This document shows positions 1-64,000 of a stretch of 64,000 nt of DNA, piece after piece. The stretch lies in contig CAMPDV010000065.1 in assembly GCA_946699065.1 (NCBI GenBank), positions 62,001-126,000 of the forward strand, in the 5' to 3' direction. This DNA is from Loxodes magnus (Eukaryota; Ciliophora; Karyorelictea; Loxodida; Loxodidae). Every line of letters starts with the position of its first letter. Position 1 is the stretch's first letter. A program made the translations under genes and the position numbers. The notes below the pieces were generated by a model. It saw only the letters and a list, made by a program, of their open reading frames with translations, made no database searches and was not told the origin of the DNA.

Positions 1-489
1 ACTGAAATAGAATTTTAAGTAGATTAAAATAGTTCGACTGAATTAGACTTTTAAGTAAATTAAAATAAGTTTGACTGAAATAGAATTTACAGTAAATTAA
101 AATAAGTTTGACTGAAATAGAATTTTAAGTAAATTAAAATAAGATTGACTGAAATAGAATTTTAAGTAAATTAAAATTAGTTTGACTGAAATAGAATTTT
201 AAGTAAATTAAAATAAGTTTGACTGAAATAGAATTTACAGTAAATTAAAATAAGTTTGACTGAAATAGAATTTTAAGTAAATTAAAATACCTTTGACTGA
301 AATAGAATAATACGTAAATTAAAATAAGATTGACTTAAATAGAATTTTAAGTAAATAAAAATAAGTTTGACTGAAATAGAATTTTAAGTAGATTAAAATT
401 AGTTTGACAGAAATAGAATTTTAAGTAAATTAAAATAAGTTTGACTGAAATAGAATTTTAAGTAAATTAAAATTTGTTTGACTGAAATA

Positions 490-765
490 GAATTTTAAGT
501 AAATTAAGATCAGTTTGACTGAAATAGAATTTTAAGTAAATTAAAATAAGTATGACAGAATTAGAATTTTACGTAAATTAAAATAAGTTTGACTGAAATA
601 GAATTTTAAATAAATTAAGATCAGTTTGACTGAAATAGAATTTAAAGTAAATTAAAATAAGTTTGACTGAAATAGAATTTTAAATAAATTAAGATCAGTT
701 TGACTGAAATAGATCTTTAAATAAATTAAAATAAGTTTGACTGAAATAGAATTTTAAGTAAATTA
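490..765 (+). repeat. Short duplicated block, copy 1 (offset 884 bp)
   Basis: A run of units with the order gtatgacagaattag/ttttacg, ttttaaataaattaagatcag, tttaaag, ttttaaat, then atagatcttt recurs at 1,374-1,649. The tatgac marker lies at 551 here and 1,435 there. The offset of 884 equals 24 units less four bases, which fits several 36-bp units between the copies. Confidence 0.75.
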
Positions 766-1189
766 AAATAAGAGTGATGAAATAGACTTTTAAGTAAATT
801 AAAATTAGTTTGACTGAAATAGAATTTTAAGTAAATTAAAATAAGAGTGATGAAATAGACTTTTAAGTAAATTAAAATCAGTTTGACTGAAATAGAATTT
901 TAAGAAAATTAAAATAAGTTTGACTGAAATAGAATTTTAAGTAAATTAAAATCAGTTTGACTGAAATAGATCTTTAAATAAATTAAAATAAGAGTGATGA
1001 AATAGACTTTTAAGTAAATTAAAATAAGTTTGACTGAAATAGAATTTTAAGTAGATTAAAATAAGTTTGACTGAAATAGAATTTTAAGTAAATTAAAATA
1101 CGTATAAATGAAAAAGAATTTTAAGTAAATTAAGATCACTTATACTGAAATAGAATTTTAAGTAAATTAAATAAAGTTTGACTGAAATA

Positions 1190-1425
1190 GAATTTTAAGT
1201 AAATTAAAATAAGTATGACAGAATTAGCATTTTACGTAAATTAAAATAAGATTGACTGAAATAGAATTTTAAGTAAATTAAAATTAGTTTGACTGAAATA
1301 GAATTTAAAGTAAATTAAAATAAGTTTGACTGAAATATAATTTTAAATAAATTAAAATCAGTGTGATGAAATAGAATTTTAAGTAAATTAAGATCAGTTT
1401 GACTGAAATAGAATTTTAAGTAAAT
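1190..1425 (+). repeat. Duplicated block, copy 1 (offset 924-962 bp)
   Basis: The ordered units gtatgacagaattagcatttt, aagattg, attag, tttaaag, tataattttaaat and gtgtgatg recur at 2,114-2,387. The marker tatgacagaattagc is at 1,214 here and 2,138 there. The second copy has one extra unit (gagtgactg), so the offset grows from 924 to 962 bp within the block. Confidence 0.75.
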
Positions 1426-7369: not shown

Positions 7370-9785
7370 ATCAGTTTGACTGAAATAGAATTTTAAGTAA
7401 ATTAAGATCAGTTTGACTGAAATAGAATTTTAAGTAAATTAAATAAGTTTGACAGAAATAGAATTTTAAGTAAATTAAGATCAGTTTGACTGAAAAAGAA
7501 TTTTAAGTAAATTAAATAAAGTTTTACTGAAATAGAATTTTAAGTAAATTAAAATCAGTTTGACTGAAATAGAATTTTAAGTAGATTAAAATAAGTTTGA
7601 CTGAAATACAATTTTAAGTAAATTAAAATAAGTTTGACTGAAATACAATTTAAAGTAAATTAAGATCAGTTTGACTGAAATAGAATTTTAAGTAAATTAA
7701 AATAAGTTTGACTGAAATAGAATTTTAAGTAAATTAAAATAAGTTTGACTGAAATAAAATTTTTAGTAGATTAAAATAGTTTGACTGAATTAGAATTTTA
7801 AGTAAATTAAAATAAGTTTGACTGAAATAGAATTTTAAGTAAATTAAGATCAGTTTGACTGAAATAGAATTTTAAGTAAATTAAAATCAGTTTGACTGAA
7901 ATAGAATTTTAAGTAAATTAAGATCAGTTTGACTGAAATAGAATTTTAAGTAAATTAAAATCAGTGTGATGAAATAGAATTTTAAGTAAATTAAGATCAG
8001 TTTGACTGAAATAGAATTTTAAGTAAATTAAGATCAGTTTGACTGAAATAGAATTTTAAGTAAATTAAAATCAGTTTGACTGAAATAGAATTTTAAGTAA
8101 ATTAAGATCAGTTTGACTGAAATAGAATTTTAAGTAAATTAAAATAAGTTTGACTGAAATAGAATTTTAAGTAAATTAAAATACCTTTGACTGAAATAGA
8201 ATAATACGTAAATTAAAATAAGATTGACTTAAATAGAATTTTAAGTAAATAAAAATAAGTTTGACAGAAATAGAATTTTAAGTAAATTAAGATCAGTATG
8301 ACAGAATTAGAATTTTACGTAAATTAAAATAAGTTTGACTGAAATAGAATTTACAGTAAATTAAAATCAGTTTGACTGAAATAGAATTTTAAGTAAATTA
8401 AAATACCTTTGACTGAAATAGAATAATACGTAAATTAAAATAAGATTGACTTAAATAGAATTTTAAGTAAATAAAAATAAGTTTGACTGAAATATAATTT
8501 TAAGTAAATTAAAATAAATTTGACTGAAATAGAATTTTAAGTAAATTAAGATCAGTTTGACTGAAATAGAATTTAAAGTAAATTAAGATCAGTTTGACTG
8601 AAATAGAATAATACGTAAATTAAAATAAGTTTGACTGAAATAGAATTTTAAGTAAATTAAAATACGTATGAATGAAAAAGAATTTAAAGTAAATTAAAAT
8701 AAGTTTGACTGAAATAGAATTTTAAGTAAATTAAAATAAGTATGACATAATTAGAATTTTACGTAAATTAAAATAAGTTTGACTGAAATAGAATTTTAAG
8801 TAAATTAAGATCAGTTTGACTGAAATAGAATTTAAAGTAAATTAAGATCAGTTTGACTGAAATAGAATAATACGTAAATTAAAATAAGTTTGACTGAAAT
8901 AGAATTTTAAGTAAATTAAAATAAGTTTGACTGAAATAGAATTTTAAGTAAATTAAAATCAGTTTGACTGAAATAGAATTTTAAGTAAATTAAAATAAGT
9001 TTGACTGAAATAGAATTTTAAGTAAATTAAGATCAGTTTGACTGAAATAGAATTTTACGTAAATTAAAATAAGTTTGACTGAAATATAATTTTAAGTAAA
9101 TAAAATACGTATGACAGAATTAGAATTTAAAGTAAATTAAGATCAGTTTGACTGAAATAGAATTTAAAGTAAATTAAAATAAGTTTGACTGAAATAGAAT
9201 TTTAAGTAAATTAAAATAAGTTTGACTGAAATAGAATTTAAAGTAAATTAAAATAAGTTTGACTGAAATAGAATTTTAAATAAATTAAAATCAGTGTGAT
9301 GAAATAGAATTTTAAGTAAATTAAAATCAGTATGACAGAATTAGAATTTTACGTAAATTAAAATAAGAGTGACAGAAATAGAATTTTAAGTAAATTAAGA
9401 TCAGTTTGACAGAAATAGAATTTTAAGTAAATTAAGATCAGTTTGACTGAAATAGAATTTTAAGTAAATTAAAATAAGTTTGACTGAAATACAATTTTAA
9501 GTAAATTAAAATCAGTTTGACTGAAATAGAATTTTAAGTAAATTAAGATCAGTTTGACTGAAATGGAATTTTAAGTAAATTAAGATCAGTTTGACTGAAT
9601 TAGAATTTTAAGTAAATTAAAATAAGTTTGACTGAAATAGAATTTTAAGTAAATTAAATAAAGTTTGACTGAAATAGAATTTTAAGTAAATTAAGATCAG
9701 TTTGACTGAAATAGAATTTACAGTAAATTAAGATCAGTTTGACTGAAATAGAATTTTAAGTAAATTAAAATAAGTTTGACTGAAA
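7370..9785 (+). repeat. 2.4-kb duplicated block, copy 1 (offset 4,167-4,168 bp)
   Basis: A long ordered series of variants recurs at 11,538-13,952. Shared markers include taaataagtttgacag, gttttactg, atacaatttt, aaattttta, two atacctttg/ataatacg pairs, gtatgacataattag and atggaatttt. Marker spacing is 4,168 bp near the start (7,583 and 11,751) and 4,167 bp later (8,184 and 12,351; 9,561 and 13,728). A few units differ near 7,700 and 7,900. The block ends where copy 1 goes on with consensus junctions and copy 2 with a gtgtgaatgaaattg unit. Confidence 0.88.
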
Positions 9786-11537
9786 TAGAATTTTAAGTAA
9801 ATTAAAATAAGTTTGACTGAAATAGAATTTAAAGTAAATTAAAATTAGTTTGATGAAAAAGAATTTTACGTAAATTAAAATAAGTTTGACTGAAATAGAA
9901 TTTTAAGTAAATTAAAATCAGTATGACAGAATTAGAATTTAAAGTAAATTAAGATCAGTTTGACTGAAATAGAATTTTAAGTAAATTAAGATCAGTTTGA
10001 CTGAAATAGATCTTTAAATAAATTAAAATAAGTTTGACTGAAATAGAATTTTAAGTAAATTAAAATAAGTTTGACTGAAATACAATTTTAAGTAAATTAA
10101 AATCAGTTTGACTGAAATAGAATTTTAAGTAAATTAAGATCAGTTTGACTGAAATAGAATTTTAAGTAAATTAAATAAGTTTGACAGAAATAGAATTTTA
10201 AGTAAATTAAGATCAGTTTGACTGAAAAAGAATTTTAAGTAAATTAAATAAAGTTTTACTGAAATAGAATTTTAAGTAAATTAAAATCAGTTTGACTGAA
10301 ATAGAATTTAAAGTAAATAAAGATCAGTTTGACTGAATTAGAATTTTACGTAAATTAAAATAAGTTTGACTGAAATAGAATTTTAAGTAAATTAAAATAA
10401 GTTTGACTGAAATAGAATTTAAAGTAAATTAAAATTAGTTTGATGAAAAAGAATTTTACGTAAATTAAAATAAGTTTGACTGAAATAGAATTTTAAGTAA
10501 ATTAAGATCAGTTTGACTGAAATAGATCTTTAAATAAATTAAAATAAGTTTGACTGAAATAGAATTTAAAGTAAATTAAAATTAGTTTGATGAAAAAGAA
10601 TTTTACGTAAATTAAAATAAGTTTGACTGAAATAGAATTTTAAGTAAATTAAGATCAGTTTGACTGAAATAGATCTTTAAATAAATTAAAATAAGTTTGA
10701 CTGAAATAGAATTTTAAGTAAATTAAAATAAGTTTGACTGAAATAGAATTTAAAGTAAATTAAAATTAGTTTGATGAAAAAGAATTTTACGTAAATTAAA
10801 ATAAGTTTGACTGAAATAGAATTTTAAGTAAATTAAAATCAGTATGACAGAATTAGAATTTTAAGTAAATTAAAATCAGTGTGATGAAATAGAATTTTAA
10901 GTAAATTAAGATCAGTTTGACTGAAATAGAATTTTAAGTAAATTAAGATCAGTTTGACTGAAATAGAATTTTAAGTAAATTAAAATCAGTTTGACTGAAA
11001 TAGAATTTTAAGTAAATTAAGATCAGTTTGACTGAAATAGAATTTTAAGTAAATTAAGATCAGTTTGACTGAAATAGAATTTTAAGTAAATTAAAATAAG
11101 TTTGACTGAAATACAATTTTAAGTAAATTAAAATCAGTTTGACTGAAATAGAATTTAAAGTAAATAAAGATCAGTTTGACTGAATTAGAATTTTACGTAA
11201 ATTAAAATAAGTTTGACTGAAATAGAATTTTAAGTAAATTAAAATAAGTTTGACTGAAATAGAATTTAAAGTAAATTAAAATTAGTTTGATGAAAAAGAA
11301 TTTTACGTAAATTAAAATTAGTTTGATGAAAAAGAATTTTACGTAAATTAAAATTAGTTTGACTGAAATTGAATTTTAATAATTTTTGAATAAGTTTGAC
11401 TGAAATAGAATTTTAAGTAAATAAAAATCAGTATGACAGAATTAGAATTTTAATTAAATTAAAATAAGTTTGACTGAAATAGAATTTTAAGTAAATTAAA
11501 ATAAGAGTGACTGAAATAGAATTTTAAGTAAATTAAA
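9786..11537 (+). repeat. Linker rich in 332-bp-block fragments
   Basis: This stretch between the two 2.4-kb copies is built from pieces of the 6.66-kb block (tttaaag, attagtttgatgaaaaag/ttttacg, cagtatgacagaattag, atagatcttt). The pieces appear several times in changed order. BglII units are at 10,008, 10,524 and 10,671. It also holds a partial copy of the start of the 2.4-kb block. The last 250 bp resemble 18,320-18,536. Confidence 0.75.
10080..10293 (+). repeat. Partial third copy of the 2.4-kb block's start
   Basis: The series atacaatttt, cagtttg, gatcag, taaataagtttgacag, gactgaaaaag, aaataaagttttactg is the same as at about 7,345-7,560 and 11,515-11,730. It then switches into the 332-bp block (aaataaagatcag at 10,315). 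Such a junction marks a past recombination within the array. Confidence 0.75.
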
Positions 11538-13952: not shown

Positions 13953-14995
13953 TAGAATTTTAAATAAATTAAAATCAGTGTGAATGAAATTGAATTTTAA
14001 GTAAATTAAAATAAGTTTGACTGAAATAGAATTTTAAGTAAATTAAGATCAGTTTGACTGAAATAGAATTTTAAATAAATTAAGATCAGTTTGACTGAAA
14101 AAGAATTTTAAGTAAATTAAAATAAGTTTGACTGAAATAGAATTTAAAGTAAATTAAAATAAGTTTGACTGAAATAGAATTTTAAGTAAATTAAAATAAG
14201 TTTGACTGAAATAGAATTTTAAGTAAATTAAGATCAGTTTGACTGAAATAGAATTTTACGTAAATTAAGATCAGTTTGACTGAAATAGAATTTTAAGTAA
14301 ATTAAAATAAGTTTGACTGAAATAGAATTTTAAATAAATTAAAATAAGTTTGACTGAAATAGAATTTTAAGTAAATTAAAATTAGTTTGACTGAAATAGA
14401 ATTTAAAGTAAATTAAAATAAGTTTGACTGAAATAGAATTTTAAATAAATTAAAATCAGTGTGATGAAATAGAATTTTAAGTAAATTAAAATCAGTATGA
14501 CAGAATTAGAATTTTAAGTAAATTAAGATCAGTTTGACTGAAATAGAATTTTAAGTAAATTAAAATAAGTTTGACTGAAATAGAATTTTAAATAAATTAA
14601 AATCAGTGTGAATGAAATTGAATTTTAAGTAAATTAAAATAAGTTTGACTGAAATAGAATTTTAAGTAAATTAAAATAAGTTTGACTGAAATAGAATTTT
14701 AAGTAAATTAAGATCAGTTTGACTGAAATTGAATTTTAAGTAAATTAAAATAAGTTTGACTGAAATAGAATTTTAAGTAAATTAAATAAGTTTGACAGAA
14801 ATAGAATTTTAAGTAAATTAAGATCAGTTTGACTGAAAAAGAATTTTATGTAAATTAAAATAAGTATGACTGAAATAAAATTTTGAGTAGATTAAAATAG
14901 TTTGACTGAATTAGAATTTTAAGTAAATTAAAATAAGTTTGACTGAAATAGAATTTTAAGTAAATTAAAATCAGTTTGACTGAAATAGAATTTAC

Positions 14996-21487: not shown

Positions 21488-21884
21488 GAATTTAAAGTAA
21501 ATTAAAATCAGTATGAATGAAAAAGAATTTTAAGTAAATTAAAATCAGTTTGACTGAAATAGAATTTTAAGTAAATTAAAATCAGTTTGACTGAAATAGA
21601 ATTTTAAGTAAATTAAAATAACTTTGACTGAAATAGAATTTTAAGTAAATTAAAATCAGTTTGACTGAAATAGAATTTTAAGTAAATTAAGATCAGTTTG
21701 ACTGAAATAGAATTTTAAGTAAATTAAAATAAGTTTGACTGAAATAGAATTTTAAGTAAATTAAGATCAGTTTGACTGAAATAGAATTTTAAGTAAATTA
21801 AAATCAGTTTGACTGAAATAGAATTTTAAGTAAATTAAAATAAGAGTGACTGAAATAGAATTTTAAGTAAATTAAAATAAGATT

Positions 21885-23025
21885 GACTGAAATAGAATTT
21901 TAAGTAAATTAAGATCAGTTTGACTGAAATAGAATTTTAAGTAAGTTAAAATAAGTGTGACTGAAATAGAAATTTAAGTAAATTAAAATAAGTTTGAATG
22001 AAATAGAATTTTAAGTAAATTAAAATAAGTTTGACTGAAATAGAATTTTAAGTAAATTAAAATCAGTTTGACTGGAATAGAATTTTAAGTAAATTAAAAT
22101 CAGTTTGACTGAAATAGAATTTTAAGTAAATTAAAATAAAAGTGACTGAAATAGAATTTAAAGTAAATTAAGATCAGTTTGACTAAACTAGAATTTTAAG
22201 TAGATTAAAATCAGTTTGACTGAAATAGAATTTTAAGTAAATTAAGATCAGTTTGACTGAAATAGAATTTTAAGTAAATTAAAATAAGTTTGACTGAAAT
22301 AGAATTTTAAATAAATTAAAATAAGATTGACTGAAATAGAATTTAAAGTAAATTAAAATCAGTATGACAGAATTAGAATTTTAGGTAAATTAAAATCAGT
22401 TTGACTGAAATAGAATTTTAAGTAAATTAAGATCAGTTTGACTGAAATAGAATTTAAAGTAAATTAAAATAAGTTTGACTGAAATAGAATTTTAAGTAAA
22501 TTAAAATAAGTTTGACTGAAATAGAATTTAAAGTAAATTAAAATCAGTATGAATGAAAAAGAATTTTAAGTAAATTAAAATCAGTTTGACTGAAATAGAA
22601 TTTTAAGTAAATTAAAATCAGTTTGACTGAAATAGAATTTTAAGTAAATTAAAATAACTTTGACTGAAATAGAATTTTAAGTAAATTAAAATAAGTTTGA
22701 CTGAAATAGAATTTTAAGTAAATTAAAATAAGAGTGACTGAAATAGAATTTTAAGTAAATTAAGATCAGTTTGACTGAAATAGAATTTTAAGTAAATTAA
22801 AATAAGTTTGACTGAAATAGAATTTTAAATAAATTAAAATAAGTTTGACTGAAATAGAATTTTAAGTAAATTAAAATCAGTTTGACTGAAATAGAATTTT
22901 AAGTAAATTAAAATAAGAGTGACTGAAATAGAATTTTAAGTAAATTAAAATCAGTTTGACTGAAATAGAATTTTAAGTAAATTAAAATAAGTTTGACTGA
23001 AATAGAATTTTAAGTAAATTAAAAT
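21885..23025 (+). repeat. 1.14-kb sub-block D-i
   Basis: This starts at the gatcag unit before ttttaagtaagttaaaataagtgtg (21,941). It runs through ggaatag, aaagtgactg/tttaaag, actaaactag, taggtaa and taactttg units. The same series follows 1,591 bp (43 units) downstream. Four copies exist in region D. Confidence 0.88.
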
Positions 23026-23475
23026 AAGAGTGACTGAAATAGAATTTTAAGTAAATTAAAATAAGATTGACTGAAATAGAATTTTAAGTAAATTAAAATC
23101 CGTATGAATGAAAAAGAATTTAGAGTAAATTAAAATCAGTTTGACTGAAATAGAATTTTAAGTAAATTAAAATAAGTTTGACTGAAATAGAATTTTAAGT
23201 AAATTAAAATACGTATGAATGAAAAAGAATTTTAAGTAAATTAAAATCAGTTTGACTGAAATAGAATTTTAAGTAAATTAAAATAACTTTGACTGAAATA
23301 GAATTTTAAGTAAATTAAAATCAGTTTGACTGAAATAGAATTTTAAGTAAATTAAGATCAGTTTGACTGAAATAGAATTTTAAGTAAATTAAAATAAGTT
23401 TGACTGAAATAGAATTTTAAGTAAATTAAGATCAGTTTGACTGAAATAGAATTTTAAGTAAATTAAAATCAGTTT

Positions 23476-24616
23476 GACTGAAATAGAATTTTAAGTAAAT
23501 TAAGATCAGTTTGACTGAAATAGAATTTTAAGTAAGTTAAAATAAGTGTGACTGAAATAGAAATTTAAGTAAATTAAAATAAGTTTGAATGAAATAGAAT
23601 TTTAAGTAAATTAAAATCAGTTTGACTGAAATAGAATTTTAAGTAAATTAAAATCAGTTTGACTGGAATAGAATTTTAAGTAAATTAAAATCAGTTTGAC
23701 TGAAATAGAATTTTAAGTAAATTAAAATAAAAGTGACTGAAATAGAATTTAAAGTAAATTAAGATCAGTTTGACTAAACTAGAATTTTAAGTAGATTAAA
23801 ATCAGTTTGACTGAAATAGAATTTTAAGTAAATTAAGATCAGTTTGACTGAAATAGAATTTTAAGTAAATTAAAATAAGTTTGACTGAAATAGAATTTTA
23901 AATAAATTAAAATAAGATTGACTGAAATAGAATTTAAAGTAAATTAAAATCAGTATGACAGAATTAGAATTTTAGGTAAATTAAAATCAGTTTGACTGAA
24001 ATAGAATTTTAAGTAAATTAAGATCAGTTTGACTGAAATAGAATTTAAAGTAAATTAAAATAAGTTTGACTGAAATAGAATTTTAAGTAAATTAAAATAA
24101 CTTTGACTGAAATAGAATTTTAAGTAAATTAAAATCAGTATGAATGAAAAAGAATTTTAAGTAAATTAAAATCAGTTTGACTGAAATAGAATTTTAAGTA
24201 AATTAAAATCAGTTTGACTGAAATAGAATTTTAAGTAAATTAAAATAACTTTGACTGAAATAGAATTTTAAGTAAATTAAAATAAGTTTGACTGAAATAG
24301 AATTTTAAGTAAATTAAAATAAGAGTGACTGAAATAGAATTTTAAGTAAATTAAGATCAGTTTGACTGAAATAGAATTTTAAGTAAATTAAAATAAGTTT
24401 GACTGAAATAGAATTTTAAATAAATTAAAATAAGTTTGACTGAAATAGAATTTTAAGTAAATTAAAATCAGTTTGACTGAAATAGAATTTTAAGTAAATT
24501 AAAATAAGAGTGACTGAAATAGAATTTTAAGTAAATTAAAATCAGTTTGACTGAAATAGAATTTTAAGTAAATTAAAATAAGTTTGACTGAAATAGAATT
24601 TTAAGTAAATTAAAAT
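23476..24616 (+). repeat. 1.14-kb sub-block D-ii
   Basis: This repeats 21,885-23,025 at an offset of 1,591 bp (gtaagtt at 23,532, actaaactag at 23,773, taggtaa at 23,968). Small differences include aataactttg in place of aataagtttg near 24,100. The match ends at 24,616, where a ccgtatgaatg unit follows. Confidence 0.88.
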
Positions 24617-32263: not shown

Positions 32264-35200
32264 GTAAATTAAAATAAGTTTGACTGAAATAGAATTTTAA
32301 GTAAATTAAAATACGTATGAATGAAAAAGAATTTTAAGTAAATTAAAATAAGATTGACTGAAATAGAATTTTAAGTAAATTAAAATACGTATGAATGAAA
32401 AAGAATTTAAAGTAAATTAAAATAAGTTTGACTGAAATAGAATTTTAAGTAAATTAAAATAACTTTGACTGAAATAGAATTTTAAGTAAATTAAAATACG
32501 TATGAATGAAAAAGAATTTTAAGTAAATTAAGATCAGTTTGACTGAAATAGAATTTAAAGTAAATTAAAATAAGTTTGACTGAAATATAATTTTAAGTAA
32601 ATTAAAATCAGTTTGACTGAAATAGAATTTTAAGTAAATTAAAATAAGAGTGACTGAAATAGAATTTTAAGTAAATTAAGATCAGTTTGACTAAACTAGA
32701 ATTTTAAGTAGATTAAAATCAGTTTGACTGAAATAGAATTTTAAGTAAATTAAGATCAGTTTGACTGAAATAGAATTTTAAGTAAATTAAAATAAGTTTG
32801 ACTGAAATAGAATTTTAAGTAAATTAAAATAACTTTGACTGAAATAGAATTTTAAGTAAATTAAAATCAGTTTGACTGAAATAGAATTTTAAGTAAATTA
32901 AGATCAGTTTGACTGAAATAGAATTTTAAGTAAATTAAAATAAGATTGACTGAAATAGAATTTTAAGTAAATTAAAATACGTATGAATGAAAAAGAATTT
33001 AAAGTAAATTAAAATAAGTTTGACTGAAATAGAATTTTAAGTAAATTAAAATCCGTATGAATGAAAGAGAATTTTAAGTAAATTAAAATCAGTTTGACTG
33101 AAATAGAATTTTAAGTAAATTAAGATCAGTTTGACTGAAATAGAATTTAAAGTAAATTAAAATAAGTTTGACTGAAATATAATTTTAAGTAAATTAAAAT
33201 CAGTTTGACTGAAATAGAATTTTAAGTAAATTAAAATAAGAGTGACTGAAATAGAATTTTAAGTAAATTAAGATCAGTTTGACTAAACTAGAATTTTAAG
33301 TAGATTAAAATAAGTTTGACTGAAATAGAATTTTAAGTAAATTAAGATCAGTTTGACTGAAATAGAATTTTAAGTAAATTAAAATAAGTTTGACTGAAAT
33401 AGAATTTTAAATAAATTAAAATAAGTTTGACTGAAATAGAATTTTAAGTAAATTAAAATAAGAGTGACTGAAATAGAATTTTAAGTAAATTAAAATAAGT
33501 TTGACTGAAATAGAATTTTAAGTAAATTAAAATCCGTATGAATGAAAAAGAATTTTAAGTAAATTAAAATCAGTTTGACTGAAATAGAATTTTAAGTAAA
33601 TTAAAATAAGTTTGACTGAAATAGAATTTTAAGTAAATTTAAATACGTATGAATGAAAAAGAATTTTAAGTAAATTAAAATCAGTTTGACTAAACTAGAA
33701 TTTTAAGTAGATTAAAATAAGTTTGACTGAAATAGAATTTTAAGTAAATTAAAATCAGTTTGACTGAAATAGAATTTTAAGTAAATTAAAATAAGTTTGA
33801 CTGAAATAGAATTTTAAGTAAATTAAATAAAGTTTTACTGAAATAGAATTTTAAGTAAATTAAAATCAGTTTGACTGAAATATAATTTTAAGTAAATTAA
33901 ATTAAGTTTAACTGAAATAGAATTTTAAGTAAATTAAAATAAGAGTGACTGAAATAGAATTTTAAGTAAATTAAAATAAGATTGACTGAAATAGAATTTT
34001 AAGTAAATTAAAATCCGTATGAATGAAAAAGAATTTTAAGTAAATTAAAATAAGTTTGACTGAAATAGAATTTTAAGTAAATTAAAATAAGTTTGACTGA
34101 AATAGAATTTTAAGTAAATTAAAATCAGTATGAATGAAAAAGAATTTTAAGTAAATTAAAATCAGTATGAATGAAAAAGAATTTTAAGTAAATTAAAATC
34201 AGTTTGACTGAAATAGAATTTTAAGTAAATTAAAATAAGATTGACTGAAATAGAATTTTAAGTAAATTAAAATCCGTATGAATGAAAAAGAATTTTAAGT
34301 AAATTAAAATCAGTTTGACTGAAATAGAATTTTAAGTAAATTAAAATAAGTTTGACTGAAATAGAATTTTAAGTAAATTAAAATACGTATGAATGAAAAA
34401 GAATTTTAAGTAAATTCAAATCAGTTTGACTGAAATAGAATTTTAAGTAAATTAAAATCAGTTTGACTGAAATAGAATTTTAAGTAAATTAAGATCAGTT
34501 TGACTGAAATAGAATTTTAAATAAATAAAAATCAGTTTGACTGAAATAGAATTTTAAGTAAATTAAAATCCGTATGAATGAAACAGAATTTTAAGTAAAT
34601 TAAAATCAGTTTGACTGAAATAGAATTTTAAGTAAATTAAAATAAGTTTGACTGAAATAGAATTTTAAGTAAATTAAAATACGTATGAATGAAAAAGAAT
34701 TTAAAGTAAATTAAAATAAAATTGACTGAAATAGAATTTTAAGTAAATTAAAATAAGAGTGACTGAAATAGAATTTTAAGTAGATTAAGATCAGTTTGAC
34801 TGAATTAGAATTTTAAGTAAATTAAAATAAGTTTGACTGAAATAGAATTTTAAGTAAATTAAAATACGTATGAATGAAAAAGAATTTTAAGTAAATTAAA
34901 ATCAGTTTGACTGAATTAGAATTTTAAGTAAATTAAAATAAGTATGACTGAAATAGAATTTTAAGTAAATTAAAATAAGTTTGACTGAAATGGAATTTTA
35001 AGTAAATAAAGATCAGTTTGACTGAAATAGAATTTTAAGTAAATTAAAATCAGTTTGACTGAAATAGAATTTTAAGTAAATTAAAATAAATTGACTGAAA
35101 TAGAAATTTAAGTAAATTTTAAAAAGTATGACTGAAATAGAATTTTAAATAAATAAAGATCAGTTTGACTGAAATAGAATTTTAAGTAAATTAAAATAAG

Positions 35201-35457
35201 TTTGACTGAAATAGAATTTTAAGTAAATTAAAATACGTATGAATGAAAAAGAATTTTAAGTAAATTAAAATCAGTTTGACTGAAATAGAATTTTAAGTAA
35301 ATTAAGATCAGTTTGACTGAAATAGAATTTTAAGTAAATTAAAATAAGTTTGACTGAAATAGAATTTTAAGTAAATTAAAATACGTATGAATGAAAAAGA
35401 ATTTAAAGTAAATTAAAATAAGTTTGACTGAAATAGAATTTTAAGTAAATTAAAATA

Positions 35458-35716
35458 ACTTTGACTGAAATAGAATTTTAAGTAAATTAAAATCAGTTTG
35501 ACTGAAATAGAACTTTAAGTAAATTAAGATCAGTTTGACTGAAATAGAATTTTAAGTAAATTAAAATCAGTTTGACTGAAATAGAATTTTAAGTAAATTA
35601 AGATCAGTTTGACTGAAATAGAATTTTAAGTAAATTAAAATAAGTTTGACTGAAATGGAATTTTAAGTAAATAAAGATCAGTTTGACTGAAATAGAATTT
35701 TAAGTAAATTAAAATA
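35458..35716 (+). repeat. 259-bp seven-monomer tandem repeat, unit 1
   Basis: Seven units run from actttgactg through gaactttaag to atggaattttaagtaaataaagatcag. They are repeated directly at 35,717-35,970 (gaacttt at 35,510 and 35,769; atgg at 35,655 and 35,914). The pair was copied with the whole block into 38,710-39,222. Confidence 0.82.
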
Positions 35717-35970
35717 ACTTTGACTGAAATAGAATTTTAAGTAAATTAAAATAAGTTTGACTGAAATAGAACTTTAAGTAAATTAAGATCAGTTTGACTG
35801 AAATAGAATTTTAAGTAAATTAAAATCAGTTTGACTGAAATAGAATTTTAAGTAAATTAAGATCAGTTTGACTGAAATAGAATTTTAAGTAAATTAAAAT
35901 AAGTTTGACTGAAATGGAATTTTAAGTAAATAAAGATCAGTTTGACTGAAATAGAATTTTAAGTAAATTA
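35717..35970 (+). repeat. 259-bp seven-monomer tandem repeat, unit 2
   Basis: This is the second unit of the pair. One unit differs at the junction (aagtttg for cagtttg before gaacttt), and the end passes into a cgtatgaatg unit. The same differences appear in the copy at 39 kb, so the 259-bp duplication is older than the 3.25-kb one. Confidence 0.82.
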
Positions 35971-38900
35971 AAATACGTATGAATGAAAAAGAATTTTAAG
36001 TAAATTAAAATAAATTGACTGAAATAGAAATTTAAGTAAATTTTAAAAAGTATGACTGAAATAGAATTTTAAATAAATAAAGATCAGTTTGACTGAAATA
36101 GAATTTTAAGTAAATTAAAATAAGTTTGACTGAAATAGAATTTAAAGTAAATTAAGATCAGTTTGACTGAAATAGAATTTTAAGTAAATTAAAATACCTT
36201 TGACTGAAATAGAATAATACGTAAATTAAAATAAGATTGACTTAAATAGAATTTTAAGTAAATAAAAATAAGTTTGACAGAAATAGAATTTTAAGTAAAT
36301 TAAAATCAGTTTGACTGAAATAGAAATTTAATTAAATTTAAATCAGTATGACAGAATTAGAATTTTAAGTAAATTAAAATAAGATTGACTGAAATAGAAT
36401 TTTAAGTAAATTAAAATCAGTTTGACTGAAATAGAATTTTAAGTAAATTAAAATCAGTATGACAGAATTAGAATTTAAAGTATATTAAAATAAGTATGAC
36501 AGAATCAGAATTTTAAGTAAATTAAAATCAGTTTGACTGAAATAGAATTTTAAGTAAATTAAAATCAGTTTGACTGAAATTGAATTTTAAGTAAATTAAA
36601 ATACGTATGAATGAAAAAGAATTTTAAGTAAATTAAAATCAGTTTGACTGAAATAGAATTTTAAGTAAATTAAGATCAGTTTGACTGAAATAGAATTTTA
36701 AGTAAATTAAAATAAGATTGACTGAAATAGAATTTTAAGTAAATTAAAATTAGTTTGACTGAAATAGAATTTTAAGTAAATTAAAATAAGTTTGACTGAA
36801 ATAGAATTTTAAGTAAATTAAAATCAGTTTGACTGAAATAGAATTTTAAGTAAATTAAAATAAGTTTGACTGAAATAGAATTTTAAGTAAATTAAAATAC
36901 GTATGAATGAAAAAGAATTTTAAGTAAATTAAAATAAGATTGACTGAAATAGAATTTTAAGTAAATTAAGATCAGTTTGACTGAAATAGAATTTTAAGTA
37001 AATTAAAATAAGTTTGACTGAAATAGAATTTTAAGTAAATTAAAATACGTATGAATGAAAAAGAATTTAAAGTAAATTAAAATAAGTTTGACTGAAATAG
37101 AATTTTAAGTAAATTAAAATAACTTTGACTGAAATAGAATTTTAAGTAAATTAAAATAAGTTTGACTGAAATAGAATTTTAAGTAAATTAAGATCAGTTT
37201 GACTGAAATAGAATTTTAAGTAAATTAAAATAAGTTTGACTGAAATAGAATTTTAAGTAAATTAAAATAAGAGTGACTGAAATAGAATTTTAAGTAAATT
37301 AAAATAAGTTTGACTGAAATAGAATTTTAAGTAAATTAAAATAAGTTTGACTGAAATAGAATTTTAAGTAAATTAAAATAAGTATGACAGAATTAGAATT
37401 TTAAGTAAATTAAAATCAGTTTAAAAGAAATAGAATTTTAATTGATTAAAATAAGTTTGACTGAAATATAATTTTAAGTAAATTAAAATAAGTTTGACTG
37501 AAATAGAATTTACAGTAAAATAAATTAGAGTGACTGAAATAGAATTTTAAGTAAATTAAAATCCGTATGAATGAAAGAGAATTTTAAGTAAATTAAAATC
37601 AGTTTGACTGAAATAGAATTTTAAGTAAATTAAAATCAGTTTGACTGAAATAGAATTTTAAGTAAATTAAGATCAGTTTGACTGAAATAGAATTTTAAGT
37701 AAATTAAAATCAGTTTTACTGAAATAGAATTTTAAGTAGATTAAATAAAGTTTGACTGAAATAGAATTTTAAATAAATAAAAATCAGTTTGACTGAAATA
37801 GAATTTTAAGTAAATTAAAATCCGTATGAATGAAACAGAATTTTAAGTAAATTAAAATCAGTTTGACTGAAATAGAATTTTAAGTAAATTAAAATAAGTT
37901 TGACTGAAATAGAATTTTAAGTAAATTAAAATACGTATGAATGAAAAAGAATTTAAAGTAAATTAAAATAAAATTGACTGAAATAGAATTTTAAGTAAAT
38001 TAAAATAAGTATGACAGAATTAGAATTTTAAGTAGATTAAGATCAGTTTGACTGAATTAGAATTTTAAGTAAATTAAAATAAGTTTGACTGAAATAGAAT
38101 TTTAAGTAAATTAAAATACGTATGAATGAAAAAGAATTTTAAGTAAATTAAAATCAGTTTGACTGAATTAGAATTTTAAGTAAATTAAAATAAGTATGAC
38201 TGAAATAGAATTTTAAGTAAATTAAAATAAGTTTGACTGAAATGGAATTTTAAGTAAATAAAGATCAGTTTGACTGAAATAGAATTTTAAGTAAATTAAA
38301 ATCAGTTTGACTGAAATAGAATTTTAAGTAAATTAAAATAAATTGACTGAAATAGAAATTTAAGTAAATTTTAAAAAGTATGACTGAAATAGAATTTTAA
38401 ATAAATAAAGATCAGTTTGACTGAAATAGAATTTTAAGTAAATTAAAATAAGTTTGACTGAAATAGAATTTTAAGTAAATTAAAATACGTATGAATGAAA
38501 AAGAATTTTAAGTAAATTAAAATCAGTTTGACTGAAATAGAATTTTAAGTAAATTAAGATCAGTTTGACTGAAATAGAATTTTAAGTAAATTAAAATAAG
38601 TTTGACTGAAATAGAATTTTAAGTAAATTAAAATACGTATGAATGAAAAAGAATTTAAAGTAAATTAAAATAAGTTTGACTGATATAGAATTTTAAGTAA
38701 ATTAAAATAACTTTGACTGAAATAGAATTTTAAGTAAATTAAAATCAGTTTGACTGAAATAGAACTTTAAGTAAATTAAGATCAGTTTGACTGAAATAGA
38801 ATTTTAAGTAAATTAAAATCAGTTTGACTGAAATAGAATTTTAAGTAAATTAAGATCAGTTTGACTGAAATAGAATTTTAAGTAAATTAAAATAAGTTTG

Positions 38901-39706: not shown

Positions 39707-39891
39707 CAGTATGACAGAATTAGAATTTAAAGTATATTAAAATAAGTATGACAGAATCAGAATTTTAAGTAAATTAAAATCAGTTTGACTGAAATAGAAT
39801 TTTAAGTAAATTAAAATCAGTTTGACTGAAATAGAATTTTAAGTAAATTAAAATACGTATGAATGAAAAAGAATTTTAAGTAAATTAAAAT
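39707..39891 (+). repeat. 185-bp five-monomer duplication, unit 1
   Basis: Five units run from cagtatgacagaattag/tttaaagtatatt through gtatgacagaatcag and two cagtttg units to a cgtatgaatgaaaaag unit. Copy 1 of region F has this series once (tatatt at 36,481); here it is repeated at once. Confidence 0.9.
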
Positions 39892-40076
39892 CAGTATGAC
39901 AGAATTAGAATTTAAAGTATATTAAAATAAGTATGACAGAATCAGAATTTTAAGTAAATTAAAATCAGTTTGACTGAAATAGAATTTTAAGTAAATTAAA
40001 ATCAGTTTGACTGAAATAGAATTTTAAGTAAATTAAAATACGTATGAATGAAAAAGAATTTTAAGTAAATTAAAAT
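39892..40076 (+). repeat. 185-bp five-monomer duplication, unit 2
   Basis: This is an exact-looking second unit (tatatt at 39,918 against 39,733). It is found only in copy 2 of region F, so it arose after the 3.25-kb duplication or was lost from copy 1. 185 bp is five monomers and close to a typical nucleosome repeat length, which may be chance. Confidence 0.9.
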
Positions 40077-50345: not shown

Positions 50346-50349
50346 AGTT

Positions 50350-51292
50350 TGACTGAAATAGAATTTTAAGTAAATAAAAATAAGTTTGACAGAAATAGAA
50401 TTTTAAGTAAATTAAAATTAGTTTGACTGAATTAGAATTTTAAGTAAATTAAAATATGTTTGACAGAATTAGAATTTTACGTAAATTAAGATCAGTTTGA
50501 CTGAAATAGAATTTTAAGTAAATTAAAATCCGTATGAATGAAAAAGAATTTTAAGTAAATTAAAATCAGTTTGACTGAAATAGATCTTTAAATAAATTAA
50601 AATAAGTTTGACTGAAATAGAATTTTAAGTAAATTAAAATAAGAGTGATGAAATAGACTTTTAAGTAAATTAAGATCACTTTGACTGAAATAGAATTTTA
50701 ATTAAATTAAATAAAGTTTGACTGAAATAGAATTTTAAGTAAATTAAGATCACTTTGACTGAAATAGAATTTTAAGTAAATTAAATAAAGTTTGACTGAA
50801 ATAGAATTTTAAGTAAATTAAAATAAGAGTGACTGAAATAGAATTTTAAGTAGATTAAGATCAGTTTGACTGAATTAGAATTTTAAGTAAATTAAAATAC
50901 GTATGAATGAATTAGAATTTTACGTAAATTAAAATAAGTTTGACTGAAATAGAATTTTAAGTAAATTAAAATAAGTTTGACTGAAATAGAATTTTAAGTA
51001 AATTAAAATAAGTTTGACTGAAATAGAATTTTAAATAAATTAAAATCAGTGTGATGAAATAGAATTTTAAGTAAATTAAAATAAGTTTGACTGAAATAGA
51101 ATTTTAAGTAAATTAAAATCAGTGTGAATGAAATGGAATTTTAAGTAAATTAAAATAAGAGTGACCGAAATAGAATTTAAAGTAGATTAAAATAGTTTGA
51201 CTGAATTAGACTTTTACGTAAATTAAAATAAGTTTGACTGAAATAGAATTTTAAATAAATTAAAATCAGTGTGATGAAATAGAATTTTAAGT
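50350..51292 (+). repeat. Block R, copy 3 (left part missing)
   Basis: This starts at the ttttaagtaaataaaaataagtttgacag unit and follows block R to the gtgtgatg units. The part with cagcttg, atacctttg and ataatacg units is replaced by plain consensus units. It overlaps the start of the 2,296-bp block at 51,136. Confidence 0.82.
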
Positions 51293-53431
51293 AAATTAAA
51301 ATAAGTTTGACTGAAATAGAATTTTAAATAAATTAAAATCAGTGTGATGAAATAGAATTTTAAGTAAATTAAGATCAGTTTGACTGAAATAGAATTTTAA
51401 GTAAATTAAAATACGTATGACTGAAAAAGAATTTTAAGTAAATTAAAATCAGTTTGAAAGAAATAGAATTTTAATTAGATTAAATTAAGTTTGACTGAAA
51501 TAGAATTTTACGTAAATTAAAATAAGTTTGACTGAAATAGAATTTAAAGTAAATAAAGATCAGTTTGACTGAAATAGAATTTTAAGTAAATTAAAATACC
51601 TTTGACTGAAATAGAATTTTAAGTAAATTAAAATAAGTTTGACTGAAATAGAATTTTAAGTAAATTAAAATAAGTTTGACTGAAATAGAATTTTAAGTAA
51701 ATTAAAATAAGTTTGACTGAAATAGAATTTAAAGTAAATTAAAATAAGTTTGACTGAAATAGAATTTTAAGTAGATTAAAATTTGTTTGACTGAAATAGA
51801 ATTTTAAGTAAATTAAAATCAGTTTGACTGAAATAGAATTTTAAGTAAATTAAAATAAGATTGACTGAAATAGAATTTTAAGTAAATTAAAATCAGTTTG
51901 ACTGAAATAGAATTTAAAGTAAATTAAGAACAGTTTGACTGAAATAGAATTTTAAGTAGATTAAAATAAGTTTGACTGAAATAGAATTTTAAGTAAATTA
52001 AAATACGTATGAATGAAAAAGAATTTTAAGTAAATTAAGATCACTTTGACTGAAATAGAATTTTAAGTAAATTAAATAAAGTTTGACTGAAATAGAATTT
52101 TAAGTAAATTAAAATAAGAGTGACTGAAATAGAATTTTAAGTAGATTAAGATCAGTTTGACTGAATTAGAATTTTAAGTAAATTAAAATAAGTATGACTG
52201 AAATAGAATTTAAAGTAAATTAAGATCAGTTTGACTGAAATAGAATTTTAAGTAAATTAAAATAAGTATGACAGAATTAGAATTTTAAGTAAATTAAGAT
52301 CAGTTCGACTGAAATAGAATTTTAAGTAAATTAAAATAAGTTTGACTGAAATAGAATTTTAAGTAAATTAAAATCAGTGTGAATGAAATGGAATTTTAAG
52401 TAAATTAAAATAAGAGTGACCGAAATAGAATTTAAAGTAGATTAAAATAGTTTGACTGAATTAGACTTTTAAGTAAATTAAAATAAGTTTGACTGAAATA
52501 GAATTTTAAGAAAATTAAAATAAGTTTGACTGAAATAGAATTTTAAGTAAATTAAAATAAGTTTGACTGAAATAGAATTTTAAATAAATTAAAATCAGTG
52601 TGATGAAATAGAATTTTAAGTAAATTAAGATCAGTTTGACTGAAATAGAATTTTAAGTAAATTAAAATACGTATGACTGAAAAAGAATTTTAAGTAAATT
52701 AAAATCAGTTTGAAAGAAATAGAATTTTAATTAGATTAAATTAAGTTTGACTGAAATAGAATTTTACGTAAATTAAAATAAGTTTGACTGAAATAGAATT
52801 TAAAGTAAATAAAGATCAGTTTGACTGAAATAGAATTTTAAGTAAATTAAAATCAGCTTGACTGAAATAGAATTTACAGTAAATTAAAATAAGTTTGACT
52901 GAAATAGAATTTTAAGTAAATTAAAATACCTTTGACTGAAATAGAATTTTAAGTAAATTAAAATAAGTTTGACTGAAATAGAATTTTAAGTAAATTAAAA
53001 TAAGTTTGACTGAAATAGAATTTTAAGTAAATTAAAATAAGTTTGACTGAAATAGAATTTAAAGTAAATTAAAATAAGTTTGACTGAAATAGAATTTTAA
53101 GTAGATTAAAATTTGTTTGACTGAAATAGAATTTTAAGTAAATTAAAATCAGTTTGACTGAAATAGAATTTTACGTAAATTAAAATAAGTTTGACTGAAA
53201 TAGAATTTTAAGTAAATTAAGATCAGTTTTACTGAAATAGAATTTTAAGTAGATTAAATAAAGTTTGACTGAAATAGAATTTTAAGTAAATTAAAATACG
53301 TATGACTGAAAAAGAATTTTAAGTAAATTAAAATCAGTTTGAAAGAAATAGAATTTTAATTAGATTAAATTAAGTTTGACTGAAATAGAATTTTACGTAA
53401 ATTAAAATAAGTTTGACTGAAATAGAATTTA
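51136..53431 (+). repeat. 2,296-bp block, copy 1 (offset 8,973 bp)
   Basis: This recurs at 60,109-62,404 with one constant offset of 8,973 bp at every marker tried: gtgaccg 51,161/60,134; acctttg 51,598/60,571; gaacag 51,929/60,902; cagttcg 52,301/61,274; cagcttg 52,853/61,826; cagttttactg 53,224/62,197. No substitution or indel was noticed in the units compared by eye. The edges are a g/a difference on the left and c/a on the right. Confidence 0.92.
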
Positions 53432-58680: not shown

Positions 58681-58948
58681 AAGTAAATTTAAATCCGTAT
58701 GAATGAAAAAGAATTTTAAGTAAATTAAAATCAGTTTGACTGAAATAGAATTTTAAGTAAATTAAAATAAGTTTGACTGAAATAGAATTTTAAGTAGATT
58801 AAAATTTGTTTGACTGAAATAGAATTTTAAGTAAATTAAAATCAGTTTGACTGAAATAGAATTTTAAGTAAATTAAAATAAGATTGACTGAAATAGAATT
58901 TTAAGTAAATTAAAATCAGTTTGACTGAAATAGAATTTTAAGTAAATT

Positions 58949-59867: not shown

Positions 59868-60138
59868 AAGATCAGTTTGACTGAAATAGAATTTTAAGTA
59901 AATTAAAATAAGTTTGACTGAAATAGAATTTTAAGTAAATTAAAATAAGTTTGACAGAAATAGAATTTTAAGTAAATTAAGGTCAGTTTGACTGAAAAAG
60001 AATTTTAAGTAAATTAAAATAAGTATGACTGAAATAAAATTTTAAGCAGATTAAAATTGTTTGACTGAATTAGAATTTTAAGTAGATTAAAATAGTTTGA
60101 CTGAATTAGAATTTTAAGTAAATTAAAATAAGAGTGAC
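59868..60138 (+). repeat. 0.27-kb block, copy 2
   Basis: This is the second copy of 58,949-59,219. It runs straight into the second 2,296-bp block at a gagtgaccg unit, where copy 1 has gagtgactg. Confidence 0.78.
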
Positions 60139-62404
60139 CGAAATAGAATTTAAAGTAGATTAAAATAGTTTGACTGAATTAGACTTTTACGTAAATTAAA
60201 ATAAGTTTGACTGAAATAGAATTTTAAATAAATTAAAATCAGTGTGATGAAATAGAATTTTAAGTAAATTAAAATAAGTTTGACTGAAATAGAATTTTAA
60301 ATAAATTAAAATCAGTGTGATGAAATAGAATTTTAAGTAAATTAAGATCAGTTTGACTGAAATAGAATTTTAAGTAAATTAAAATACGTATGACTGAAAA
60401 AGAATTTTAAGTAAATTAAAATCAGTTTGAAAGAAATAGAATTTTAATTAGATTAAATTAAGTTTGACTGAAATAGAATTTTACGTAAATTAAAATAAGT
60501 TTGACTGAAATAGAATTTAAAGTAAATAAAGATCAGTTTGACTGAAATAGAATTTTAAGTAAATTAAAATACCTTTGACTGAAATAGAATTTTAAGTAAA
60601 TTAAAATAAGTTTGACTGAAATAGAATTTTAAGTAAATTAAAATAAGTTTGACTGAAATAGAATTTTAAGTAAATTAAAATAAGTTTGACTGAAATAGAA
60701 TTTAAAGTAAATTAAAATAAGTTTGACTGAAATAGAATTTTAAGTAGATTAAAATTTGTTTGACTGAAATAGAATTTTAAGTAAATTAAAATCAGTTTGA
60801 CTGAAATAGAATTTTAAGTAAATTAAAATAAGATTGACTGAAATAGAATTTTAAGTAAATTAAAATCAGTTTGACTGAAATAGAATTTAAAGTAAATTAA
60901 GAACAGTTTGACTGAAATAGAATTTTAAGTAGATTAAAATAAGTTTGACTGAAATAGAATTTTAAGTAAATTAAAATACGTATGAATGAAAAAGAATTTT
61001 AAGTAAATTAAGATCACTTTGACTGAAATAGAATTTTAAGTAAATTAAATAAAGTTTGACTGAAATAGAATTTTAAGTAAATTAAAATAAGAGTGACTGA
61101 AATAGAATTTTAAGTAGATTAAGATCAGTTTGACTGAATTAGAATTTTAAGTAAATTAAAATAAGTATGACTGAAATAGAATTTAAAGTAAATTAAGATC
61201 AGTTTGACTGAAATAGAATTTTAAGTAAATTAAAATAAGTATGACAGAATTAGAATTTTAAGTAAATTAAGATCAGTTCGACTGAAATAGAATTTTAAGT
61301 AAATTAAAATAAGTTTGACTGAAATAGAATTTTAAGTAAATTAAAATCAGTGTGAATGAAATGGAATTTTAAGTAAATTAAAATAAGAGTGACCGAAATA
61401 GAATTTAAAGTAGATTAAAATAGTTTGACTGAATTAGACTTTTAAGTAAATTAAAATAAGTTTGACTGAAATAGAATTTTAAGAAAATTAAAATAAGTTT
61501 GACTGAAATAGAATTTTAAGTAAATTAAAATAAGTTTGACTGAAATAGAATTTTAAATAAATTAAAATCAGTGTGATGAAATAGAATTTTAAGTAAATTA
61601 AGATCAGTTTGACTGAAATAGAATTTTAAGTAAATTAAAATACGTATGACTGAAAAAGAATTTTAAGTAAATTAAAATCAGTTTGAAAGAAATAGAATTT
61701 TAATTAGATTAAATTAAGTTTGACTGAAATAGAATTTTACGTAAATTAAAATAAGTTTGACTGAAATAGAATTTAAAGTAAATAAAGATCAGTTTGACTG
61801 AAATAGAATTTTAAGTAAATTAAAATCAGCTTGACTGAAATAGAATTTACAGTAAATTAAAATAAGTTTGACTGAAATAGAATTTTAAGTAAATTAAAAT
61901 ACCTTTGACTGAAATAGAATTTTAAGTAAATTAAAATAAGTTTGACTGAAATAGAATTTTAAGTAAATTAAAATAAGTTTGACTGAAATAGAATTTTAAG
62001 TAAATTAAAATAAGTTTGACTGAAATAGAATTTAAAGTAAATTAAAATAAGTTTGACTGAAATAGAATTTTAAGTAGATTAAAATTTGTTTGACTGAAAT
62101 AGAATTTTAAGTAAATTAAAATCAGTTTGACTGAAATAGAATTTTACGTAAATTAAAATAAGTTTGACTGAAATAGAATTTTAAGTAAATTAAGATCAGT
62201 TTTACTGAAATAGAATTTTAAGTAGATTAAATAAAGTTTGACTGAAATAGAATTTTAAGTAAATTAAAATACGTATGACTGAAAAAGAATTTTAAGTAAA
62301 TTAAAATCAGTTTGAAAGAAATAGAATTTTAATTAGATTAAATTAAGTTTGACTGAAATAGAATTTTACGTAAATTAAAATAAGTTTGACTGAAATAGAA
62401 TTTA
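60109..62404 (+). repeat. 2,296-bp block, copy 2
   Basis: This is collinear with and apparently identical to 51,136-53,431. Its flanks differ on both sides: on the left an aagcagatt series instead of the end of block R, on the right block R copy 4. The block was therefore copied into a different setting and is not part of one longer tandem repeat. Confidence 0.92.
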
Positions 62405-63018
62405 AAGTAAATTAAGATCAGTTTGACTGAAATAGAATTTTAAGTAAATTAAAATCAGCTTGACTGAAATAGAATTTACAGTAAATTAAAATAAGTTTGA
62501 CTGAAATAGAATTTTAAGTAAATAAAAAACCTTTGACTGAAATAGAATAATACGTAAATTAAAATAAGATTGACTTAAATAGAATTTTAAGTAAATAAAA
62601 ATAAGTTTGACAGAAATAGAATTTTAAGTAAATTAAAATTAGTTTGACTGAATTAGAATTTTAAGTAAATTAAAATATGTTTGACAGAATTAGAATTTTA
62701 CGTAAATTAAGATCAGTTTGACTGAAATAGAATTTTAAGTAAATTAAAATCCGTATGAATGAAAAAGAATTTTAAGTAAATTAAAATCAGTTTGACTGAA
62801 ATAGATCTTTAAATAAATTAAAATAAGTTTGACTGAAATAGAATTTTAAGTAAATTAAAATAAGAGTGATGAAATAGACTTTTAAGTAAATTAAGATCAC
62901 TTTGACTGAAATAGAATTTTAATTAAATTAAATAAAGTTTGACTGAAATAGAATTTTAAGTAAATTAAGATCACTTTGACTGAAATAGAATTTTAAGTAA
63001 ATTAAATAAAGTTTGACT
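62134..63018 (+). repeat. Block R, copy 4
   Basis: This matches 43,190-44,075 at an offset of 18,944 bp, falling to 18,943 after a one-base loss in the aataaaaaacctttg unit near 62,525. BglII is at 62,803. It joins the end of the 2,296-bp block on its left. On its right, after the second gatcactttg unit, it changes to a gactgaaaaag unit. Confidence 0.82.
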
Positions 63019-64000
63019 GAAAAAGAATTTTAAGTAAATTAAAATCAGTTTGAAAGAAATAGAATTTTAATTAGATTAAATTAAGTTTGACTGAAATAGA
63101 ATTTTAAGTAAATTAAAATACGTATGAATGAATTAGAATTTTACGTAAATTAAAATAAGTTTGACTGAAATAGAATTTTAAGTAAATTAAAATAAGTTTG
63201 ACTGAAATAGAATTTTAAGTAAATTAAAATAAGTTTGACTGAAATAGAATTTTAAATAAATTAAAATCAGTGTGATGAAATAGAATTTTAAGTAAATTAA
63301 AATAAGTTTGACTGAAATAAAATTTTAAGTAGATTAAAATAGTTTGACTGAATTAGAATTTTAAGTAAATTAAAATAAGAGTGACCGAAATAGAATTTAA
63401 AGTAGATTAAAATAGTTTGACTGAATTAGACTTTTACGTAAATTAAAATAAGTTTGACTGAAATAGAATTTTAAATAAATTAAAATCAGTGTGATGAAAT
63501 AGAATTTTAAGTAAATTAAAATAAGTTTGACTGAAATAGAATTTTAAATAAATTAAAATCAGTGTGATGAAATAGAATTTTAAGTAAATTAAGATCAGTT
63601 TGACTGAAATAGAATTTTAAGTAAATTAAAATACGTATGACTGAAAAAGAATTTTAAGTAAATTAAAATCAGTTTGAAAGAAATAGAATTTTAATTAGAT
63701 TAAATTAAGTTTGACTGAAATAGAATTTTACGTAAATTAAAATAAGTTTGACTGAAATAGAATTTAAAGTAAATAAAGATCAGTTTGACTGAAATAGAAT
63801 TTTAAGTAAATTAAAATCAGCTTGACTGAAATAGAATTTACAGTAAATTAAAATAAGTTTGACTGAAATAGAATTTTAAGTAAATTAAAATACCTTTGAC
63901 TGAAATAGAATTTTAAGTAAATTAAAATAAGTTTGACTGAAATAGAATTTTAAGTAAATTAAAATAAGTTTGACTGAAATAGAATTTTAAGTAAATTAAA
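63019..64000 (+). repeat. Terminal mosaic, third partial copy of the 51/60-kb block start
   Basis: After a gactgaaaaag and a gtttgaaag unit, the sequence follows block R (cgtatgaatgaattag/ttttacg). From the gtgaccg unit at 63,381 it then follows the start of the 2,296-bp block (3,247 bp from 60,134) to about 63,800. There it changes to the cagcttg/ttacag and acctttg series. It is cut by the window end, so the mosaic continues. Confidence 0.8.

Follow-up and report, generated by a model that had tools for sequence, protein, structure and literature searches.

The stretch of DNA analyzed here (the window) comprises 64,000 nucleotides of the karyorelict ciliate Loxodes magnus, positions 62,001 to 126,000 of contig CAMPDV010000065.1 (C65). 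It is built wholly from a tandemly repeated unit of 37 bp, and can be described by a single feature:

1..64000, + strand (C65:62001-126000): interior of a 37-bp satellite array, consensus ACTGAAATAGAATTTTAAGTAAATTAAAATAAGTTTG, 1733 monomers in a single direction

Tandem Repeats Finder (TRF) was run on the window, and monomers were cut by wrap-around alignment to the cyclic consensus. The main TRF row covers 1-64000 with a period of 37, 1732.8 copies, 89% matches and 0% indels, and two weaker rows of 17 and 21 bp are nested within it. Alignment divides the window into 1733 monomers, 1731 of them complete, with a length of 37 bp in 1620 and 36 bp in 111. The monomers fall into 281 variants, and their identity to the consensus has a mean of 94.2% and a minimum of 81.1%. 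The widest spacing between exact 10-mers of the consensus is 46 bases. Two such 10-mers are found on the reverse strand, compared with 26 in one shuffle of the window, the forward strand of which has 125. The strands are asymmetric in composition, with 8,968 G against 2,715 C. TRF, monomer alignment and 10-mer strand counts thus bear out a preliminary description of the window, made from the letters alone, as a single 37-bp unit in one direction with no insertion or inversion; nor was any gene found. As a long head-to-tail array of a non-coding unit it belongs to satellite DNA. The 17-bp TRF row hinted that the unit might itself have arisen from a sub-repeat. We rejected this, as the best self-shift matches at 19 of 37 positions and is equalled in 43% of 5,000 shuffles.

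The array extends far beyond the window. C65 has a length of 1,006,901 bases and the array runs from approximately 16,847 to the contig end, that is about 990 kb, so that the more than 64 kb of satellite originally claimed is confirmed and enlarged. Three intervals (16.8-60 kb, 62-256 kb and 985-995 kb) were read without a break and are all array on the + strand. We sampled the remainder at 15 further points, spread from 300 kb to the end of the contig, and each of them is array too. Together these readings make up 271,154 of 990,055 bases (27%). The edit distance per base of the 15 samples is 0.034 to 0.075, where the wrong strand gives 0.377 to 0.399 and a shuffle gives 0.395. The first ~16.85 kb of the contig are non-satellite, gene-bearing DNA of ~25% GC, and the left edge of the array is abrupt.

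Block duplication within the array

The clearest signs of turnover in the window are long blocks of monomers that recur in the same order:

51136..53431, + strand: 2,296-bp exact block, copy 1, offset by 8,973 bp (243 monomers) from copy 2
60109..62404, + strand: 2,296-bp exact block, copy 2, letter-for-letter identical to copy 1
21849..24586, + strand: 74-monomer block (74 x 37 from end to end), 99.8% identical to ~25845-28582, offset 108 monomers
34503..36648, + strand: 58-monomer block (58 x 37 from end to end), 99.7% identical to ~37755-39900, offset 88 monomers
7711..9819, + strand: 57-monomer block (57 x 37 from end to end), 99.6% identical to ~11879-13987, offset 113 monomers

The exact pair is a recent block duplication. 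Over C65:62-256 kb (194 kb) we tested offsets of 1-1499 monomers for pairs of blocks with at least 15 monomers and at least 99% identity. This gave 88 block pairs at offsets of 10-513 monomers (median 90), none of the 88 being at an offset of four or less, and 56% of the monomers lie inside these near-identical multi-unit blocks. Within the window, recurring same-order runs of at least 10 monomers account for 43% of the sequence, compared with 0% in one shuffle. Both values are those of a satellite undergoing concerted evolution. The lags in the window are unequal (43, 108, 113, 243 and others) and have no common period. A megablast self-comparison of the window with a word size of 200 returned no rows, and exact-repeat and monomer methods were used instead. 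The longest exact repeat found in C65:62-256 kb measures 2.4 kb, and the one at 16.8-60 kb reaches 4.2 kb.

Adjacent monomers are 0.900 identical in the window against 0.904 in shuffled order, and they are less alike than shuffled in 53 of the 68 chunks that make up all array stretches read. The preliminary description had proposed active homogenization. This stands insofar as copies are shared in multi-unit blocks, but not at the level of neighboring units, which are no more alike than in shuffled order. The data fit turnover by block-wise exchange or copying of kilobase blocks rather than single-unit slippage. From the anatomy of the blocks we infer the molecular pathway, in which out-of-register sister-chromatid exchange or break-induced repair would copy multi-unit blocks. 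Sequence diversity is considerable: of 7,439 monomers, those free of insertions comprise 845 types. Among the stretches read, variants are fewest next to the left edge, where there are 25, 25 and 35 among 221, 270 and 271 monomers (16.8-45 kb of C65).

The alpha-satellite unit of primates is about 171 bp. The higher-order arrays of alpha-satellite resemble the Loxodes array in their multi-unit block amplification, with blocks more alike than adjacent units (PMC8122249). The array here differs in having a unit of 37 bp and no fixed higher-order period, and in being known from sequence alone.

Contigs, edges and number of loci

The genome searched contains 705,730,643 bases in 7,843 contigs. We counted an exact 23-mer of the unit genome-wide, and found 31,220 + 6,607 = 37,827 occurrences, with no hits for the reversed control. 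At a density of 12.6-12.7 hits per kb of array, 2.98-3.00 Mb of array would be expected in the genome. Eight contigs together account for ~2.92 Mb of the ~3.0 Mb given by the 23-mer count:

C65, + strand: array of ~990 kb, read and sampled
C135: array of ~116 kb, left flank as on C65
C53: array of ~351 kb, carries the right edge
C107: array of ~756 kb, seen in all 10 samples between 1 and 740 kb; end inferred from a constant offset to C53
C339 (331 kb), C410 (275 kb), C1951 (82 kb) and C5813 (21 kb): all-array contigs, array at 19 of 19 sampled points

The samples from the four all-array contigs have edit distances of 0-0.16, compared with at least 0.29 for 45-base pieces of flank, and there is no flank at the sampled points. 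For the contigs with array on the + strand, ~31,250 hits were predicted and 31,220 found in the forward direction.

Among the matches listed there is one left flank, on C65 and C135, and one right flank, on C53 and C107. The flanks of C135 and C65 match with an identity printed as 100% for queries of 1,531 and 1,501 bases, the first with slightly fewer bits on C135. The first array units already differ between the two contigs, and two 1.5-kb pieces of C135 array found nothing above 94% in the part of C65 that was read, among the eight best matches each. This difference could be either allelic turnover or assembly error. Similarly, the C65/C135 and C53/C107 pairs are either haplotypes or alternative assembly paths; if they are haplotypes, the block perhaps measures ~1.5 Mb in each.

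The right edge is also abrupt, at C53 ~350,775. The DNA beyond it repeats part of the left flank. Two 45-base samples, taken at C53:352,001 and 353,001, differ from the colinear positions of the left flank by 0 and 1 bases respectively, and a 261-base match between the left flank and the DNA right of the array is 98% identical. The left flank has a further counterpart of 93% identity, located at C53:373.8-375.3 kb and C107:779.3-780.9 kb. This paralogue, on C53, does not stop where C65 enters the array but goes on into other DNA; among the matches listed, that DNA is found on C53 and C107 only. GAATTTT is common to the satellite and the C53 paralogue at the left junction, where C65 reads AAATTTT. 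We take this as a hint of microhomology only, since such a word could plausibly occur by chance in AT-rich DNA. The simplest reading of the two edges is one interstitial block flanked by direct copies of a local segment. The eight contigs, with one left and one right flank among the matches listed, therefore correspond to the homogeneous block envisaged in the preliminary description, and not to many dispersed short loci.

Coding potential and the source genome

The window contains no Rfam match at the gathering score, and no tRNA was found there by ARAGORN. With standard stop codons its longest open run is 60 codons. If TGA is the sole stop, the longest open run is 62 codons on the + strand and 429 codons on the − strand, and the − strand has 56 runs of at least 200 codons that require TAA and TAG to be read as sense. 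The longest is:

59986-61272, − strand: 429 codons without TGA, the longest TGA-free run in the window

These runs arise because the complement of the unit lacks TGA, and are probably a by-product of the unit in the Loxodes genetic code rather than genes. The longest has no Pfam match, and we rejected the possibility that the array is coding in that code. No product is suggested by any sequence feature found in the array.

Two genes lie in the left flank:

C65 ~5.1-5.8 kb, + strand: Abhydrolase_2 gene, <12 kb from the satellite edge
C65 6.8-7.6 kb, − strand: Abhydrolase_3 gene, <12 kb from the satellite edge

The Abhydrolase_2 gene (E 1e-39) is open along its length only when TAA and TAG are read as Gln and TGA as Trp. 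This reading, from one gene with in-frame TAA, TAG and TGA within the domain, agrees with the karyorelict code; the code of Loxodes magnus is reported as table 27, with TAA and TAG = Gln and TGA = Trp or stop (PMC11441545).

In their main text, Seah et al. 2024 (PMC11441545) describe macronuclear (MAC) and micronuclear (MIC) assemblies of Loxodes magnus of 706 and 848 Mbp, and give low-complexity tandem repeats in bulk, 231 Mbp for MAC and 359 Mbp for MIC. With the same genetic code and a similar richness in repeats, our array is very probably part of that MAC fraction, and the 37-bp family corresponds to ~1.3% of the 231 Mbp. In line with that figure, 14 of 20 sampled contig starts are tandem repeats. 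The words 'satellite' and '37 bp' do not occur in the main text of PMC11441545, which gives no unit, family or locus for this array. A 44-base pattern had no match in viral and GTDB contigs, which are not satellite libraries and may leave out records of this organism's own genome. The suggestion that the satellite is unrecognized therefore survives in part. We found no name for the unit in that main text, but the bulk tandem repeats of the source assembly are already published. As a satellite, the array is unnamed but ordinary repetitive DNA. Neither the 37-bp unit, nor a single block bounded by two edges, nor its history of block-wise change was found in the main text of PMC11441545 or, by title and opening of the abstract, in the literature searched.

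Other satellites in this genome bear comparison. A far more abundant one has units of 80-92 bp, a 32-mer of which gives 129,503 + 116,786 = 246,289 exact hits. All 12 of the contig starts that are AT-rich tandem arrays show an excess of G over C, or of C over G, that is 2.3-fold or more on a given strand, as the window does, and strand-asymmetric satellites may be general in the Loxodes magnus genome. A second, minor 37-bp satellite is found on C2100 and C1932, with 624 + 895 = 1,519 hits for its 23-mer. The C2100 unit is like that of the window at 26 of 37 positions, where the 99th percentile of shuffled units is 24 and the 99.9th is 26; it was one of 14 sampled satellites. It is possibly a distant relative of the window unit as judged from this resemblance, which we regard as a lead only.

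Repeats of other kinds were also seen among the sampled contigs. C600:1-800 and C3300:1-800 contain 123-bp tandem repeats of 44% GC that encode WD40 in one frame if stops are read as residues, with six WD40 stretches on C600 (E 5e-72) and seven on C3300 (E 2e-61). Coding WD40 arrays may thus have been amplified in this genome. C5505 and C5958, with 56% GC compared with ~25% for the nuclear flank, each carry COX1 twice in opposite directions; the gene contains extra sequence between positions 100 and 105 of the profile. Either a mitochondrial genome having inverted copies or a palindromic assembly could account for this.

Nature of the satellite block

We think it likely that the window is the interior of one chromosomal satellite block in Loxodes magnus, ~1 Mb long on one contig and ~3 Mb over all contigs, that is passively kept, silent and without a coded product. 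Array turnover would clear insertions, so that the block could be maintained passively. Its presence in the somatic nucleus would be due solely to the retention of germline repeats by Loxodes, in which the main text of PMC11441545 reports no extensive DNA elimination. The same source places histone H3 trimethylated at lysine 9 (H3K9me3) in the Loxodes somatic nucleus. Because that nucleus keeps repeats and carries this mark, silent H3K9me3-type heterochromatin without a coded product is the most likely state of the array.

A number of points weigh against this interpretation. The heterochromatin state is taken from the nucleus as a whole and not from the array itself. The − contigs predict ~5,640 hits of the 23-mer where 6,607 were found. 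The right edge on C107 comes from the offset to C53, and the agreement of the array sums depends on it. Flank counts are those among the best matches listed, and arrays lacking the exact 23-mer escape the count. Distant relatives of the flank are present on C149, C71 and C115 (69-78%), and at C53:351,001, past the right edge but short of the shared segment, the sampled bases do not match the left flank. Long − strand open runs are present when TGA is the only stop. Lastly, singleton changes (n = 214) are uneven over the positions of the unit (chi-square P 1.2e-8), being ~2-3x commoner at G and C than at A and T, and this leaves room for some constraint on the sequence. A claim for a binding site in the unit was dropped, given that it is the G and C positions that change more and that common variants may recombine.

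A different role is conceivable, in which the array would serve one micronuclear chromosome as its centromere or as the heterochromatin beside it, and would have been carried over to the somatic nucleus. An apparently single, large interstitial block of ~990 kb on one contig, homogeneous and in one orientation, would be in keeping with this, as would block-wise amplification of the kind reported for alpha-satellite (PMC8122249). Centromeric regions of Tetrahymena are large (5.0-10.3 Mb) and repeat-rich (PMC5182062), and Loxodes H3 homologues form three groups, with a different H3 variant suggested in micronuclei (PMC11441545). Yet no word starting 'centromer' occurs in the main text of the latter paper. 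The array is seemingly at one locus, where a shared centromeric satellite would be expected on every chromosome, and the far more abundant 80-92-bp satellite is a better candidate. There is also no fixed higher-order period, and so no regular higher-order repeat. Such a repeat is not found at every centromere, and some satellites are chromosome-specific. On balance we consider a centromeric role unlikely. A bolder version, in which Loxodes magnus chromosomes have private megabase satellites, with this 37-bp block acting as the centromere of its own chromosome and surviving whole in the somatic nucleus, seems to us quite unlikely.

The length and arrangement of the array might instead be largely an artefact, a short real array having been looped or over-extended by the assembler. 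The difference in size between the MIC and MAC assemblies is ascribed by the authors to misassembly of low-complexity repeats (PMC11441545), and for this reason the array length and the order of copies are assembly claims. Moreover C65 and C135, with their near-identical flanks, diverge in content within the array. Against this, the monomers are rich in variants, both in the window and among the types counted more widely, and the longest exact repeats, at 2.4 and 4.2 kb, are such that high-fidelity (HiFi) reads should be able to place the copies. Typical HiFi reads are longer than these repeats. An artefact on this scale is therefore very unlikely.

A terminal satellite capping a chromosome end can be dismissed as extremely improbable: Loxodes telomeres and telomerase "have eluded our detection" (PMC11441545) and the G-rich strand of the C65 array runs outward to the contig end, but other DNA adjoins the array at both the left edge (C65/C135) and the opposite, right edge (C53/C107), the left flank recurs to the right of the array, making the array interstitial, and a contig that ends within the array does so because assembly stopped there.

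An interstitial satellite block kept in a somatic genome can be compared with the repeats of other ciliates. In those described in the introduction of PMC11441545, repeats are largely removed from the somatic genome. Tandem repeats occur in the germlines of Paramecium (PMC5405496) and Tetrahymena (PMC5182062) as well, and some of them are retained somatically. The Paramecium assembly has 1.4 Mb of tandem repeats, 65% of them germline-limited, and the 35% that are kept are ascribed to WD40, TPR and other repeats (PMC5405496); the Tetrahymena germline assembly has 2.9 Mb of tandem repeats (PMC5182062). Loxodes differs in having a single array of ~1 Mb in the somatic assembly.

The array is thus a satellite of ~1 Mb that survives in a ciliate somatic genome. 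Its borders with the chromosome are assembled on either side, and its past block duplications can be read. The array offers a defined target, comprising one probe for fluorescence in situ hybridization and two flanks, for locating the centromeres and chromosome ends of Loxodes. Should the block prove to be centromeric, a ciliate somatic assembly would be usable to read a centromere together with both of its flanks.

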